64,000 bases of DNA, from contig AP024629.1 in NCBI GenBank assembly GCA_019670725.1, positions 4,278,001 through 4,342,000 of the forward strand, given 5' to 3'. The notes below the pieces were generated by a model. The model searched no databases, had not been told where the DNA came from, and saw only the letters and a program-made list of their open reading frames with translations. How positions within the stretch are numbered: position 1 is the stretch's first letter; every line of letters begins with the position of its first letter. Positions 12,193 through 22,337 of the stretch are shown in pieces. The translations under genes were made by a program, and so were the position numbers. This DNA comes from Alphaproteobacteria bacterium SO-S41. Lineage in GTDB: Bacteria > Pseudomonadota > Alphaproteobacteria > Micropepsales > Micropepsaceae.

Positions 12193-14046
12193 TCAGCGCA
12201 TGAGCTCGTAGAGCGTGACCTTCAATTTGCCGTCGGGCCGCGCATCGTCGGGGTGCAGCATCGCGTGGAAGTCCGAGCCGACGAAGATCAATTGCTGATG
12301 CGCCGCCAGCTTGTCGGAATAGTAGGTCACGCCGGCAATCCCGTCTGACGTCACCAGGCGGCTGTCAATGACGACGCCGGCCTGAACGGGCCGGTTGTCG
12401 TCCGACTGGACGACGAAGACATATTGCGCGGCATCCGGCACTTCGAGGCCGTGGATCAGATTCTTGGGCGAATTCAGTTCGGGAATCGCCTCCGCCATCA
12501 TGCCCTCGAACTCCGCGACCTTCTTCACCTTGTCGGCGCCGCCGGCATCGTGCGCCATGGCGTCCATGATGTTCTTGAGCTGAACCTCGGGGGTCAGCGC
12601 CAGACGCGCATCGGCCTCGGCGAACTGCTTTTCGATCTGCGGCATCTGGGCGTCGACCTTGCCCTCCATGAGATCGAGCATCAGGTCGGCCCTCTGGGCG
12701 TAGTTGATCATGGCGGTGCTGCCGACACGGTGCACCTTGCCGTCGGTGTCCTTGAAGAAGTTCATGTTGCCGGCATTGTGAAAGGCGACGATTTCGCCCT
12801 TGGCGTTGAAGATGGCGCTGCCCGAGGCGCCGCCCGCGGACGGCACGGAGTGCTGCACGAGCTGCTCCTGCTCGACCGGACCCGGCGTCAGGAAGAAGGT
12901 GGTCAGCGAGGTGATGCGGCCGGTCTCGGCGGTCGGTTCGGGCATCATCACGTTGGTGCCGGCGACGCCTTCGCTGGGATAGCCGACATAGACGAGACCG
13001 TCGCCGGCCCGGAGGGCCGCCATCGTTTCACGCGAGGCGAGCTTCGCGGGCGGTCCCAGTTTGTCGGGCTCGGTGACGAACAGCAGCGCCACGTCATAGG
13101 CCGGAATGTAATAATTCCAGTCCTGGTTCGCGGCCCCGCCCATCACCTTCTGGCGGCTGTCGTTCAGGAACACCCATTCCTGGAAACGATCAAAGCCGGG
13201 ATGGACGCGCACGGCGTTGATCTCGACGAACGGATGGTCGAGGCCCTTGGACTGCCGGGCGATGAGCTTGCCGCCTGCCAGTTTCGGCTCGGTCGAGAGT
13301 TCGGTGAACATTTCCGCGACATGGGCATTGGTGGCGAGCGCCTTGGTGCCGTCGGGCATCAGCACCGAGGTGGCGGTGGCGACGCCCACCACATTGCCGG
13401 CGGCATCCAGCTGCTGCACGTAATAGACCGACTCCTTGTTCGCCGCGATGATCGTGGCCGCGTCGATGTTGGAGTTGCTGAGATTGGCGAGTTCCTTGCG
13501 GACGGCCGGCAGGTCGGTCTGGATGTCCTTCACCTGGCCTTGAACCGCGACGACGTCTTCCTTGAGGCTGTTGGTGATCAGCCAGCCGAGGCCGCCGAGA
13601 ACGAGGACCAGCGCAGCGATCGCCGCCACGATGCCGAGCGTCCGGTTGCCCTTGACGGAGGTCGCGTGCAGGTCGTGCGCCAGCTCGCGCTGGGGCTTGA
13701 GGATTTCGGTCTTTGCCTGGTTGGAGCCGCGGCCATCGATGCGCTCCAGCTTCAGGCGCGGGCCTTCCAGACTGCCGAGCTGGATTTCCGCGTCCTTGGG
13801 GACCGCCTGGTCGTCATAGAGCGGGCGGCCGTTCATGAAGACCGGCTTCTCGGGATTGATGACGAATTTGTAGCCGCCATACTCCTTGCGCAGCCCGAAA
13901 TGCTCGCGGCTGACCAGAGTGAGGTCGTCGGGAAAGCTTACATCGGCGTCGATGCCGCGCCCGAAATGGATCTGGCTCTTGTCGTCGTCGAAATCGAGTT
14001 CACGGCCGGCGAGCGGTCCGGTCACGTAGCGGATCTTCAAAGCCAT
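12193..14046 (-). CDS. Membrane-anchored FHA-trypsin-like serine protease fusion
   Basis: 617 aa. Residues 1-105 form a forkhead-associated phosphothreonine-binding domain (FGR at 28-30; VSREHF at 45-50; NGRPLYDD). One membrane helix spans about 138-157 (GIVAAIAALVLVLGGLGWLI). A coiled stretch follows (165-195), then a chymotrypsin-fold protease: His242 in TNAHVAEM, Asp318 in AYDVALLFV and Ser408 in GGASGSAIF complete the triad. An extra 130-residue C-terminal part is unassigned. Predicted topology is cytoplasmic FHA, periplasmic protease. This would link Ser/Thr phosphorylation inside to proteolysis outside. No Ser/Thr kinase is in the window. A GGGGGA ribosome site precedes the ATG. It lies 106 bases downstream of an acyltransferase gene on the same strand. 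Confidence 0.83.
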   Translation of the reverse strand: MALKIRYVTGPLAGRELDFDDDKSQIHFGRGIDADVSFPDDLTLVSREHFGLRKEYGGYKFVINPEKPVFMNGRPLYDDQAVPKDAEIQLGSLEGPRLKLERIDGRGSNQAKTEILKPQRELAHDLHATSVKGNRTLGIVAAIAALVLVLGGLGWLITNSLKEDVVAVQGQVKDIQTDLPAVRKELANLSNSNIDAATIIAANKESVYYVQQLDAAGNVVGVATATSVLMPDGTKALATNAHVAEMFTELSTEPKLAGGKLIARQSKGLDHPFVEINAVRVHPGFDRFQEWVFLNDSRQKVMGGAANQDWNYYIPAYDVALLFVTEPDKLGPPAKLASRETMAALRAGDGLVYVGYPSEGVAGTNVMMPEPTAETGRITSLTTFFLTPGPVEQEQLVQHSVPSAGGASGSAIFNAKGEIVAFHNAGNMNFFKDTDGKVHRVGSTAMINYAQRADLMLDLMEGKVDAQMPQIEKQFAEADARLALTPEVQLKNIMDAMAHDAGGADKVKKVAEFEGMMAEAIPELNSPKNLIHGLEVPDAAQYVFVVQSDDNRPVQAGVVIDSRLVTSDGIAGVTYYSDKLAAHQQLIFVGSDFHAMLHPDDARPDGKLKVTLYELMR

Positions 14047-14152: not shown

Positions 14153-14938
14153 CTATTTGGGTGAGTGCGCCGTCCTGGCCGGTTTCGCGGCCTCTTCGGG
14201 GGAGGGCACCAGCACCGCCGGCGTCACCGGCCGGCCGGTCGCCGCGGCGACGAGTTCGGCGGTCTTGGCTTCGACCACGCCTTCAAGGCGCGCGAGGAAT
14301 TCGTCCTTCTCCAGCCCCGTCGGGATGGGATCGAGGAATTCGAGCGTCGCCGTGCCCGGCTTCTTCGCGGTGAAGCGCGGCCAGAAGAGGCCGAGATTCG
14401 TCGCGAGCGGCACGACGGGGAGATCGAAGTCGCGATACATGTGCCAGACGCCGGAGCGATAGCGGTACTTCTCGCCGATATTGGCGAGCGCGCCTTCCGG
14501 GAAGATCAGGATCTTGCGGCCTTCCTTGTGTGCATCGGCGGCGCGGTGCTTCAGCGCATCGCGCGCCTCCTGGCCGCCGCAGCTATTGACGACGATGGCG
14601 CCCAGTTTCTTCAGCACCGTGCCGAGCAGTGGCAGCTTCTCAAGATGATCGCCGGTGACGAAGGCGAGATCGTCGAACTGGTCGTAGGTGGCGAAGCCGT
14701 CGCCCCAGCTTTGATGCTTGGAGGCGACGATGAAGGCGCCCTGCGGCAGGCGCTCGCGGCCGCGCACGTCGAGCTTGATGCCGGCGAAGAACCGCATCGC
14801 CTGCACCATGCGGCGGACATAGCGGCGGATGATCCAGGCGGTGACGTTCCGCCCCGGCCAGAGCGCGCCGAAGGCGGCGCCGAGGCCGTAGAAGATGGAG
14901 AGCGCCCAATAGGCGACGGCGAAGGCGAAGTTGCGCAT
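14153..14938 (-). CDS. 1-acyl-sn-glycerol-3-phosphate acyltransferase (PlsC family)
   Basis: 261 aa. The N-terminal amphipathic/membrane segment (1-30) is followed by the acyltransferase motifs: HQSWGD (HX4D, catalytic), FPEGALANIG (motif III) and the VVPLATNLG region (motif IV). It acylates lysophosphatidic acid to phosphatidic acid at the inner membrane during phospholipid synthesis. The tail of about 35 residues is Ala/Pro-rich. It is followed by the FHA-protease gene. Several PlsC paralogues are common in alphaproteobacteria, so whether this is the housekeeping copy is not known. Confidence 0.88.
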   Translation of the reverse strand: MRNFAFAVAYWALSIFYGLGAAFGALWPGRNVTAWIIRRYVRRMVQAMRFFAGIKLDVRGRERLPQGAFIVASKHQSWGDGFATYDQFDDLAFVTGDHLEKLPLLGTVLKKLGAIVVNSCGGQEARDALKHRAADAHKEGRKILIFPEGALANIGEKYRYRSGVWHMYRDFDLPVVPLATNLGLFWPRFTAKKPGTATLEFLDPIPTGLEKDEFLARLEGVVEAKTAELVAAATGRPVTPAVLVPSPEEAAKPARTAHSPK

Positions 14939-17823: not shown

Positions 17824-20763
17824 ATGACCGCCAAGAAAACGGATGCCCAGATCGCCAAGACCGGCGCGCCCTTCGGCAAGGGCGACCATCTCTATCTGAT
17901 CGATGCGTCGGGCTATATCTTCCGCGCCTATCACGCGCTGCCGCCTTTGACCCGCAAGTCCGACGGCACGCCGGTCGGCGCGGTCAGCGGCTATGCCAAC
18001 ATGATGCACAAGCTGCTGCGCGAACTGCGCGACGGCGAGCGTCCGACGCATCTGGCGGCCATCTTCGACCAGTCGGAAAAGACGTTCCGCAGCGACTTCT
18101 ATCCCGACTACAAGGCCCACCGGCCGCCGCCGCCCGAGGACCTGATCCCGCAATTCCCGCTGATCCGCGACACGACCAAGGCGTTCAATGTCGATTGCGT
18201 GGAGCTGGCGGGTTACGAGGCCGACGACCTGATCGCCGCCTATGCCTGCCTGGCGCGCGACAAGGGCGGGCGCGTCACCATCGTCTCGTCCGACAAGGAC
18301 CTGATGCAGCTCGTCGAGGACGGCAAGATCGAACTCTACGACACGATGAAGAACAAGCGCATCGCGTCGCCCGAAGTGTTCGAGAAGTTCGGCGTAACGC
18401 CGGACAAGGTGATCGACGTGCAGTCCCTTGCCGGCGACAGCGTCGACAACGTGCCGGGCGTGCCGGGCATCGGCATCAAGACGGCGGCCGAGCTGATCAA
18501 CACCTACGGTAATCTCGAAACCCTCCTGGAGCGGGCCGGCGAGATCAAGCAGAACAAGCGGCGCGAGAACCTGATCGAGCATGCCGAGAAGGCGCGCATC
18601 TCAAAGCGCCTCGTGACGCTGGACTGCAACACGCCGGTGCCGACCGAACTCGACGATCTGCGTGTCGAGGCGATCGATGCGGCGAAGCTGATCGGCTTCC
18701 TGAAGGCGATGGAGTTCTCGTCCCTCACGAAGCGGATCGCGGCCGAGTTCGAGGTCGGCGATACCGGCGAGATCGCCGCGACCGATGTCGCCGTCATCCG
18801 GGTGCCGGGCGCCGCGGCGCCGAAGCCCGCCAAGGCGCCGGTCACGACCGACGAAGCCTGGGTGCCGACGGCCCGTCCGGGCGCCGCGGCGATCGAGAGC
18901 GCCCTGAAAGCCAAGTTCGACGTGAAGGCGTATCGCGCGCTGACGGCGGCGGACGACTTGAAGGCCTATGTCGCGCGCGCCATGGCACAGGGCTGGATCG
19001 CCTTCGATACCGAGACCACCGGGCCCGATCCGATGAAGGCGGAGCTGGTGGGCGTGTCGCTGGCACTCAGCCCGGGCGATGCCGTCTATGTCCCGCTGCG
19101 TCATGGGCTGCTCAGCCGCGACCTCATGTCGAGCGGTGAGGCGCCGGTGCAGATCGCGGTCGCCGAGGCGATGGCGATCCTGCGCCCGATGCTGGAGGAC
19201 CCGAGCATCCTCAAGATCGCACACGACGCCAAATACGACATCACCATCCTGGCCGAAGCCGGGATTGCCGTCGCGCCGGTCGATGACACGATGCTGATGT
19301 CCTATGCGCTGGACGCCGGGCTGCACGGCCACGGCATGGACGAAATCGCCAAGCTGCAGCTTGGCCATGACCCGATCTCGTACAAGGAGGTCGTCGGCAG
19401 CGGCAAAAAGATGATGACGTTCGACGCCATCGAGATTCCCCGCGCGACCGAATATGCGGCCGAGGATGCGGATGTTGCGCTGCGCCTGCACGGACTGCTG
19501 AAGCCGCAACTCACGGCGAAGCGCGTGACCACGGTCTACGAGACGCTGGAGCGGCCGTTGATTCCGGTGCTGGCGGCGATGGAGCGCGCGGGCATCCTGG
19601 TCGACCGCGAAACGCTGTCGCGCCTGTCGGGCCGATTCGCCCAGAAGATGGCCGCGTTGGAAGAGGAGATTCACGAACTCGCCGGCGAAAAGTTCAATCT
19701 CGGCAGTCCCAAGCAGCTCGGCGATATCCTGTTCGGACGGATGGGCCTGCCCGGCGGGCGCAAGACGGCGACCGGCGCGTGGTCGACCGATGCGGACGTG
19801 CTCGACGAATTGGCCGCGCAGGGCCACGCTTTGCCGCAGCGCATTCTCGACTGGCGCCAGCTTTCCAAGCTGAAGGGCACCTATACGGACGCGCTGCCCA
19901 CCTACATCAACGCGCATACGGGCCGCGTCCACACCAACTTCCAGCTGGCGGCGACGCCGACCGGGCGCCTCGCCTCGACCGAGCCCAACCTGCAGAACAT
20001 TCCGATCCGTACTGAAGAGGGCCGCTCGATCCGGACCGCTTTCATCGCGCCGCCGGGCCATGTGCTCATCAGTGCCGACTACAGCCAGATCGAGCTGCGT
20101 CTGCTTGCCCATGTCGCGGATATCCCGACGCTGAAGCAGGCCTTCACCGACGGGCTCGACATTCATGCGATGACGGCGTCGGAAATGTTCGGCGTGCCGC
20201 TCGCCGAGATGACCAGCGATGTCCGCCGCCGCGCCAAGGCGATCAATTTCGGCATCATCTACGGCATTTCGGCCTTCGGGCTCGCCAACAACCTGTCGAT
20301 CCCGCGCGGCGAGGCCGACGCCTATATCAAGAAGTACTTCGAACGCTTCCCCGGCATTCGCGACTATATGGAGCGCTACAAGCAGCTCTCGCGCGACAAC
20401 GGCTATGTCGAGACGATCTTCGGGCGGCGCATCCACTATCCCAACATCAAGGCGTCCAATCCCTCGCTGCGGGCATTCAGCGAGCGGGCCTCGATCAACG
20501 CGCCGCTCCAGGGGTCGGCCGCCGACATCGTGCGCCGCGCCATGATCCGCGTACCGCCGGCGCTGGCGAAGGCGGGGCTATCGGCGCGGATGCTGCTGCA
20601 GGTGCATGACGAACTCGTCTTCGAGGCGCCCGAGAAGGAAGCAGCCCAGACGATGAAGATCGTCAAGGACGTGATGGAGAATGCGGCCCACCCTGCGGTG
20701 CAGATGAGCCTGCCGCTGACGGTTGAGGTGAAGTCCGGCAAGAACTGGGACGAGGCACACTAG
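17824..20763 (+). CDS. polA: DNA polymerase I
   Basis: 979 aa with three domains in order. The 5'-3' exonuclease (about 22-310) has YLIDASGYIFRAYHAL, GYEADDLIA and SSDKDLMQL. The 3'-5' proofreading exonuclease (about 380-580) has active-site acids intact (FDTETTGPD; AHDAKYDI; YAAEDADV). The polymerase (about 600-979) shows motif A DYSQIELRLLAHV, motif B RRRAKAINFGIIYG and motif C VHDEL. It fills gaps in repair and removes RNA primers. The ATG 17824 is chosen over an upstream frame start at 17758, which would add 22 residues with no homology. Its stop TAG shares the palindrome CTAG with the stop of the convergent gene. Confidence 0.97.
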   Translation: MTAKKTDAQIAKTGAPFGKGDHLYLIDASGYIFRAYHALPPLTRKSDGTPVGAVSGYANMMHKLLRELRDGERPTHLAAIFDQSEKTFRSDFYPDYKAHRPPPPEDLIPQFPLIRDTTKAFNVDCVELAGYEADDLIAAYACLARDKGGRVTIVSSDKDLMQLVEDGKIELYDTMKNKRIASPEVFEKFGVTPDKVIDVQSLAGDSVDNVPGVPGIGIKTAAELINTYGNLETLLERAGEIKQNKRRENLIEHAEKARISKRLVTLDCNTPVPTELDDLRVEAIDAAKLIGFLKAMEFSSLTKRIAAEFEVGDTGEIAATDVAVIRVPGAAAPKPAKAPVTTDEAWVPTARPGAAAIESALKAKFDVKAYRALTAADDLKAYVARAMAQGWIAFDTETTGPDPMKAELVGVSLALSPGDAVYVPLRHGLLSRDLMSSGEAPVQIAVAEAMAILRPMLEDPSILKIAHDAKYDITILAEAGIAVAPVDDTMLMSYALDAGLHGHGMDEIAKLQLGHDPISYKEVVGSGKKMMTFDAIEIPRATEYAAEDADVALRLHGLLKPQLTAKRVTTVYETLERPLIPVLAAMERAGILVDRETLSRLSGRFAQKMAALEEEIHELAGEKFNLGSPKQLGDILFGRMGLPGGRKTATGAWSTDADVLDELAAQGHALPQRILDWRQLSKLKGTYTDALPTYINAHTGRVHTNFQLAATPTGRLASTEPNLQNIPIRTEEGRSIRTAFIAPPGHVLISADYSQIELRLLAHVADIPTLKQAFTDGLDIHAMTASEMFGVPLAEMTSDVRRRAKAINFGIIYGISAFGLANNLSIPRGEADAYIKKYFERFPGIRDYMERYKQLSRDNGYVETIFGRRIHYPNIKASNPSLRAFSERASINAPLQGSAADIVRRAMIRVPPALAKAGLSARMLLQVHDELVFEAPEKEAAQTMKIVKDVMENAAHPAVQMSLPLTVEVKSGKNWDEAH

Positions 20764-22337
20764 GCGGCGCGGGCGACCTTTTTCAGCAGTTCGCGGAGCA
20801 GCGTATCGCAAGCGCCCTTGGGGATATGGCCTGAGTCAAGCGCGGTCTGCATGGTCTGGATCACCCCGCCGCCCTTGGCGAGCACGGCGGCGAAGCGTCC
20901 GGGCTCGATGCTCTTGCGGGCCAGCGCATCGACAAGCGCGCCGCCTTCATGGCGGGCGACTTCGGGAAGGCCCGATTTCATGATCCGCGTCTGCAGTTCC
21001 GCGGCGCGCGCGAGGCGCACCAGCGGCGAGGCGGCGCCGTCGCCCAGCGTCGCCTCAAAGGCGGCCGAGGCGAGGATCGGCTTGATGTTGTCCCAGATGC
21101 GCCGCTTGTTCTCGGCGCCGACGATGTTTTCCTCCAGCGCGAGCAGGCGGAGAATCCGCTCGGTCGGCTGGGGCGTGTCCTTCAGGAATTCCTCGATCGG
21201 CGCGGACTGCACGAGATGGCGCGAGCGCAGCGTGACGGCGCCGACGATGTCCTCGTGCGGCACGAGCCGCGAGGGCCCGAGCACCAGACGCGAGGTGATG
21301 GCGCGGAGATGCCGCATCTCGATCTCGACGGTCGCGCCGAGCCGCTTGTGGGTTTTCAACTCCGCGAGGACGCGGCGGCCGAGCGCCGTGCGCGCATCGA
21401 GCAGGCGGTCCTTGCCGAACATCGCGGAGAGCCGCATGAGGCTGGCATTGACGGCGCCGGGCGGCAGGCGGGCGATATAGAGATCGCTCATCGCAAGCAG
21501 GGCGTTGCCGAGATCGGGCAGCGGGCCGATCAATTGCTGGAGCGCGGCGGAGCCGCCGAGGATCTCGCTGACGACGGCGTCGGCAAGGGCGCTGAGCATG
21601 GCGCGGGCGGGCCCGTCCGGCGGCAGCGCCTCCAGCACCTCCAGCGCGCGGTCGAGCTTGTCGTTCCAGTTCGTGGCGGGCGCGAGATATTTGGCGAGCG
21701 CCATGCCGACGAGAAAGGAGGCTTCGGGCTGGCCGGCCTTGGCCATGGCGAAAGCGGCGAGCTCCTCGGCATTGGCGCAGGCGACGACACGCTTGCCGGC
21801 CTCCTCGCGATAGACGCGCTGGATGGCGCGATCGGCGAGATCGTTGAGCGCGCGGATCAGCGTCACCACGCTGTCGCCGGTATCGCCGGCCTGGGCGAGC
21901 GCGACCTTCTGTACGGCATGCTGGAAGAGCGTGCCGGTCGCTTCCAGCTTCTCCAGCATGTCGGCGCGGTGGATGAGTTCGGTGACCGTCAGCTTCCAGC
22001 GCGCGAGCGTGTCGGCGAAGAGGCGGCCCAGCGTCACGCGGGCATGGACGGAATAAAGATCCTCGGGCGTCCGGCAGGGCAGTGTCGGCGGGGAATCTTC
22101 GGCCTCGCGGCGCAGCTTCACCTTGCGGGTGCCGTCCTCGAAAATGGTGAGGCCCATGAAGTCGCCGGTGGCGTCGTCATAGGTTTCCTTGACGACCTTC
22201 ACGCCGCTGAAGCCGCGGCCGAGCGCCTGCTTGGCGAATTCGAGCGCTTCGTCGCGGCGGTCCTGCGCTTCGAGCAGGCTCCAGCCCGGCGAGTTGCCGC
22301 GCCGGCCGAAGATTTCGTAATGAACTTGCTTCGCCAT
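20760..22337 (-). CDS. Conserved protein of unknown function, 525 aa
   Basis: Soluble, helical, no signal peptide or membrane segment. The N-terminal 80 residues (MAKQVHYEIFGRRGNSPGWSLLEAQDRRDEALEFA) look like a compact alpha/beta domain. The remaining 440 residues are nearly all helix and may form repeats. I recognise no catalytic motif. It is convergent with polA, sharing four bases (CTAG) that provide both stop codons. It starts 48 bases after the D-2-hydroxyacid dehydrogenase gene ends on the same strand and could be co-transcribed with it. Confidence 0.7.
   Translation of the reverse strand: MAKQVHYEIFGRRGNSPGWSLLEAQDRRDEALEFAKQALGRGFSGVKVVKETYDDATGDFMGLTIFEDGTRKVKLRREAEDSPPTLPCRTPEDLYSVHARVTLGRLFADTLARWKLTVTELIHRADMLEKLEATGTLFQHAVQKVALAQAGDTGDSVVTLIRALNDLADRAIQRVYREEAGKRVVACANAEELAAFAMAKAGQPEASFLVGMALAKYLAPATNWNDKLDRALEVLEALPPDGPARAMLSALADAVVSEILGGSAALQQLIGPLPDLGNALLAMSDLYIARLPPGAVNASLMRLSAMFGKDRLLDARTALGRRVLAELKTHKRLGATVEIEMRHLRAITSRLVLGPSRLVPHEDIVGAVTLRSRHLVQSAPIEEFLKDTPQPTERILRLLALEENIVGAENKRRIWDNIKPILASAAFEATLGDGAASPLVRLARAAELQTRIMKSGLPEVARHEGGALVDALARKSIEPGRFAAVLAKGGGVIQTMQTALDSGHIPKGACDTLLRELLKKVARAA

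Follow-up and report, generated by a model that had tools for sequence, protein, structure and literature searches.

Trypsin-fold proteases of the HtrA/DegS type are controlled by assembly and allostery, and both DegS and RsgI9 are anchored in the membrane. Kinase-dependent behavior of FHA proteins has been described for Rv1747 of Mycobacterium tuberculosis, whose FHA module condenses upon phosphorylation by PknF and which itself forms membrane clusters (PMC9312465), and for OdhI/GarA, onto which the TPR-containing kinase PknG docks and which it phosphorylates (PMC8546545). A chain that joins FHA domains to a trypsin-family protease was catalogued in 2008 as FHA-FHA-Tryp, namely NP_811686.1 of Bacteroides thetaiotaomicron (PMC2605481). 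Furthermore, three sources on conflict systems describe trypsin effectors that accompany nSTAND1 proteins (PMC7159879, PMC8195603, PMC10907252), and one of them sets out the EAD principle, a published theme in which dispersed paralogues carry the same interaction domain as a core system (PMC8195603).

The protein reported here, encoded within a 64,000-nucleotide stretch of DNA (hereafter the window; Table 1), has features in common with each of these systems. As in the B. thetaiotaomicron chain, an FHA domain precedes a trypsin-family protease in a single polypeptide; that chain carries two FHA domains, however, and the accessible portion of the survey names no membrane helix, kinase, nSTAND1 context or PPC-like C-terminus (PMC2605481). 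With Rv1747 it shares an FHA domain followed by a disordered linker before the membrane parts, and kinase-dependent clustering as a model, although Rv1747 is an ABC transporter with two FHA domains and no protease. The PknG–GarA/OdhI pair likewise combines a TPR-containing kinase, an FHA partner and an acceptor threonine beside the FHA domain, but its FHA protein is a soluble metabolic inhibitor lacking a membrane helix or protease, and the TPR region lies C-terminal to the kinase in PknG and N-terminal in the kinase of the family cluster described below. DegS, HtrA and RsgI9 share the trypsin fold, whereas the window protein has no detected PDZ domain and a predicted FHA domain on the cytoplasmic side. 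With NTP-dependent conflict systems (EAD/bDLD, nSTAND1, NucA-trypsin) the common elements are an nSTAND1 or other NTPase paired with a trypsin-like effector, paralogues scattered over the genome, sensor domains that vary (WD40, FGE) and TIR; here, an FHA domain with its kinase would take the adaptor role that an EAD or a death-like domain has there, the protease is predicted to lie outside the cytoplasmic membrane, and the domain shared by dispersed copies under the EAD principle would be FHA. The literature searched, covered in part, held no description of a system combining a kinase, an FHA–membrane helix–trypsin protein and TPR-S/nSTAND1, and one may already exist. The original prediction that no member of this architecture had been characterized therefore stands for the literature searched, although FHA-trypsin chains as such were listed in 2008.

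Table 1. Positions of the gene, its domains and key codons, and its upstream neighbor in the window.
Feature	Positions	Strand	Details
FHA-TM-trypsin-PPC-like protein	12193..14046	(-)	617 aa, ATG start
FHA domain, residues 1-104	13735..14046	(-)	AlphaFold2 pLDDT about 89; Rv1747 FHA 8.5e-8; intact motif residues
Thr113 codon, candidate phosphoacceptor	13708..13710	(-)	22/25 homologues; in the disordered linker
Membrane helix, residues 136-160	13567..13641	(-)	AlphaFold2; flank charges
Helix, possible coiled coil, residues 165-190	13477..13554	(-)	AlphaFold2
Trypsin-fold protease domain, residues 196-460	12667..13461	(-)	PF13365, AlphaFold2, fold matches
Catalytic His242 codon	13321..13323	(-)	position and invariance in 16 family members
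Catalytic Asp318 codon	13093..13095	(-)	position and invariance in 16 family members
Catalytic Ser408 codon	12823..12825	(-)	position and invariance in 16 family members
PPC-like beta-sandwich, residues 507-615	12202..12528	(-)	structure prediction and fold matches
PlsC-type acyltransferase, upstream neighbor	14153..14938	(-)	same strand, 106-base gap; linkage not conserved

The gene has a GGGGGA Shine-Dalgarno-like sequence immediately 5′ of its ATG and a GC3 of 0.86, similar to that of its neighbors. AlphaFold2, run with the family alignment, resolves the domains of Table 1 together with a disordered linker (residues 106–138, pLDDT <50) and a helical segment (464–501) ahead of the C-terminal beta-sandwich. 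The order of FHA domain, membrane helix and protease, first proposed from the letters of the gene, is borne out by the family profile, the structure prediction and the homologues.

The FHA domain is confirmed by profile comparison and modeling despite being missed by Pfam: PF00498 detected nothing on the single window sequence at E values up to 1, short of the Pfam cut-off, and a genome-wide search with the same model likewise passed it over. The NCBIfam TagH and OdhI models match weakly. A profile of 20 relatives, by contrast, matched PDB chains over residues 9–106, with the Rv1747 FHA domain as the best FHA match and GarA also matching (8.5e-5), and relatives built in the same way (loci L060-L064, L074 and L076) do pass the PF00498 cut-off. 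All phosphothreonine-contact residues are present in the window copy (Gly29-Arg30, Ser46-Arg47-x-His49 and Asn72-Gly73). Arg30 and Ser46, the phosphate-holding residues of known FHA domains, are retained in 23 and 22 of 25 homologues, respectively; Arg47 and Asn72 vary among paralogues. In the source genome the standard Pfam model fails to see this domain, so annotation would miss the family. Scanning the genome contigs with the window protein alone returned zero loci, as against 28 with the family alignment.

The linker that follows is variable, yet Thr113 persists within it, mostly in the context K-T-E-I/V-L and as T-E-P in distant relatives; in Bauldia the threonine is shifted by one position. 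The count of 22 out of 25 overstates independence, as the aligned homologues include many close kin. We regard Thr113 as a candidate phosphoswitch, the step from a conserved threonine to a switch being one that we infer.

Beyond the linker, positive charge on the N-terminal side of the membrane helix exceeds that on the C-terminal side in 26 of 27 relatives, and by the positive-inside rule, which is the evidence for the orientation originally suggested, the FHA domain is predicted to be cytoplasmic and the protease to lie outside the cytoplasmic membrane. Members from the same taxonomic family have no cysteine after the helix. The protease matches Trypsin_2 (PF13365; 1.3e-11, residues 236–421, 45.9 bits against a cut-off of 27.6), and its fold matches those of DegP, HtrA1, RsgI9 S1C and V8. 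The His-Asp-Ser triad is complete, exactly at the three residues named beforehand, and marks a trypsin-like peptidase whose activity is predicted. A Pfam search of the window protein found, after the protease, no PDZ domain of the kind that marks HtrA/DegS proteins.

The C-terminal part, left unassigned by the original prediction, can now be modeled. Modeled in isolation from an alignment of 17 sequences, it attains a pLDDT of 94. Among solved structures, its fold best matches the ColG collagen-binding domain and a Bacillus collagenase domain labeled "pre-peptidase C-terminal domain", with GOLD and subtilisin-associated beta-sandwiches ranking lower. Pfam gives no sequence match; at the level of the predicted fold, the domain is PPC-like. 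PPC-type domains accompany secreted peptidases, which fits an outside location of this part of the chain.

The source genome encodes four further family members, of which three, two full paralogues and one shortened, lie consecutively in a cluster at C1:485-491 kb. One flank of this cluster holds a 1806-aa nSTAND1-WD40 protein (3.1e-83), a 205-aa DprA/SLOG-like protein, for which the SLOG assignment is a weak DprA-family match (0.0039), and TPR-S (1e-15); the other holds a TPR-Ser/Thr kinase (7e-35; G000:C1 490747-492831). The cluster occurs in 5/5 genomes of the genus, split across two contigs in one (G002). Catalytic motifs are present in the kinase, which looks active, as is the Walker A motif in nSTAND1. 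In the five nSTAND1 proteins examined there is one strong membrane helix with its positive flank on the NTPase side, so that the sensor part is predicted to lie outside. The N-terminal DUF4062 match of the nSTAND1 protein in the genus falls below the Pfam cut-off (17.8 against 24.7 bits) and is no more than a lead. Pfam, through its general models, listed no EAD or death-like adaptor domain in these chains. In PADLOC the protease matches RT-Protease models weakly and the kinase matches general kinase-domain models alone; we therefore claim no named defense system. The shortened paralogue (L006:8096-9424 (+), equal to G000:C1 485095-486423) has no FHA domain, and its triad is lost, with Leu, Gly and Ala in place of His, Asp and Ser, making it a pseudoprotease that could act as a decoy or regulator.

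The linkage recurs outside the genus. The trio of kinase, TPR-S and FHA-trypsin is found in two other genera of the taxonomic family (G006; G009 and G460), and a further genome (locus L029, G010:C136) combines an FHA-trypsin gene and a TPR/kinase region with a SLOG-like protein and two TIR-nSTAND1-FGE proteins. Beyond the taxonomic family, in Alteromonas arenosi, TIR-nSTAND1-WD40, kinase and FHA-trypsin genes lie within 10 kb, and in Bauldia litoralis nSTAND1, FHA-trypsin and kinase genes stand together; in another Bauldia sp. (L068) nSTAND and FHA-trypsin are present and no kinase was found in the 17.7 kb examined. With 5 kinases in a 4.44 Mb genome, the chance of finding a kinase within 10 kb of any one locus is about 2%. 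Members are rare and patchily distributed, occurring in 9 of the 96 genomes that represent the taxonomic family and in 5 of 385 genomes sampled from the class, and a plasmid search gave no family match. Kinase and FHA-trypsin also go together in a different class of the same phylum, where one genome (L110:6193-10872, G561) carries a four-gene set for a glycine-zipper protein, a Ser/Thr kinase, a PP2C phosphatase and an FHA-trypsin protein.

Sequence comparison places the window gene as a dispersed paralogue of this cluster-linked family; on a circular contig, the shorter arc between it and the main cluster would measure about 0.6 Mb. In the tree it sits alone on a long branch within the genus radiation (support 99/99 for the set of 15, 81/93 for its subgroup). 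No kinase is nearby and no nSTAND1 NTPase is adjacent, as one is for the cluster paralogues, and the gene has no orthologue in four sister genomes; its place in a pathway thus rests on homology. Its FHA motif is complete, and Thr113 and the catalytic residues are retained, so the copy looks functional rather than decaying.

Domain order and topology have computational support; phosphorylation, clustering, proteolysis and role are what we infer from here on. We give roughly even chances to the view that Ser/Thr phosphorylation is the switch for a family of type II membrane proteases, with the window gene as a dispersed member. We favor this kinase switch because the kinase linkage recurs and because Arg30, Ser46 and Thr113 are conserved; the variation of Asn72 among paralogues counts against it. 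The earlier idea of inside-out signaling by proteolysis is strengthened by the same conserved linkage. We envision that an nSTAND1 receptor, with or without a SLOG/TPR-S nucleotide signal, would activate the TPR-kinase, which would then phosphorylate Thr113 and the equivalent site in paralogues. FHA domains would bind the phosphothreonines of adjacent chains, the chains would cluster, and the clustered periplasmic trypsin domains would start to cleave envelope proteins. The main-cluster kinase, acting in trans, would draw in the window copy as well. The likely purpose would be a conflict response (immune or cell-killing) or a response to envelope damage.

As to role, our best reading is a conflict or envelope-stress system of nSTAND1 type in which phosphothreonine-FHA recognition would replace the usual adaptor domains. 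A housekeeping alternative, in which the kinase tunes a DegS/HtrA-like protease to the cytoplasmic state for envelope-stress or quality control and the window copy does the same from its own promoter, is possible if somewhat unlikely. It draws on the trypsin fold, closest to DegP/HtrA1/RsgI9, and on the genomic setting: in four genus genomes the cluster keeps one chromosomal site beside a CP-ATPgrasp/Alpha-E fusion gene (L006:16923-19511 (-); counterparts in L023, L024 and L026), and this fixed place, together with the absence from plasmids, is unlike a mobile defense island and favors a resident pathway. Set against it, TIR, nSTAND1, FGE and the patchy distribution favor a conflict role, and nSTAND1, TIR, SLOG, TPR-S and FGE/WD40 parts characterize such systems (PMC7159879, PMC8195603, PMC10907252). 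The fully immune version of our reading is a tentative proposal that we consider rather unlikely as a whole: a pathway across the membrane running from nSTAND1, with its sensor outside, through the TPR-kinase and linker-threonine clustering of FHA-TM-trypsins, dispersed copies included, to periplasmic proteolysis, with pThr-FHA in place of EAD or death-like adaptors. If our best reading is right, nSTAND1-type conflict NTPases, Ser/Thr kinase-FHA signaling and membrane-anchored trypsin-fold proteases, so far known separately, are joined in one route by which a phosphorylation event in the cytoplasm could trigger proteolysis in the periplasm. The reading singles out testable parts, namely Thr113, one kinase and one FHA domain.

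Much less probable is that the FHA domain serves as a phosphate-independent scaffold while control of the protease comes from the outer side, through its PPC-like domain or its substrate, as it does in DegS; the variation of Asn72 and Arg47 and the presence of a sensor-type PPC-like domain would suit this, but Arg30, Ser46 and the linker threonine are kept, the window FHA motif is complete and the kinase linkage is recurrent. That the window gene has lost an ancestral kinase link and now serves lipid or envelope control, by itself or together with the acyltransferase, could draw on the nearby same-strand PlsC gene, the lack of a local kinase and the solitary branch, but is the most improbable account, as the PlsC orthologue of sister genome G001 (73% identity) has no FHA-protease gene alongside and the conserved neighbors of the family are kinase, TPR-S and nSTAND1 rather than lipid genes.

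We accordingly reject a partnership with the acyltransferase, at which the gene order had seemed to hint; PlsC is the sole window gene in common with the first 12 kb of the G001 contig. A 525-aa protein encoded elsewhere in the window (20760-22337 (-)), adjoining the DNA polymerase I gene, gives no Pfam or NCBIfam match at E values up to 1. The suggested check for a type VI secretion and kinase locus did find one (L112, G000:C1 3655000-3674999), with TagH (FHA plus T6SS_FHA_C), a VgrG-like protein and a 1168-aa frame containing a Ser/Thr kinase. It is separate and unlinked, about 0.6 Mb away, and the window protein has neither the T6SS_FHA_C domain nor the T6SS neighbors of TagH/Fha proteins; we therefore reject T6SS membership. 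Finally, one chain of an uncultured Prevotellaceae (L076:8633-10159 (+)) combines a pair of FHA domains with a membrane helix and a trypsin-like domain. This is the Bacteroides-type layout listed in 2008, and genes for Ser/Thr kinases follow it a few kb downstream.
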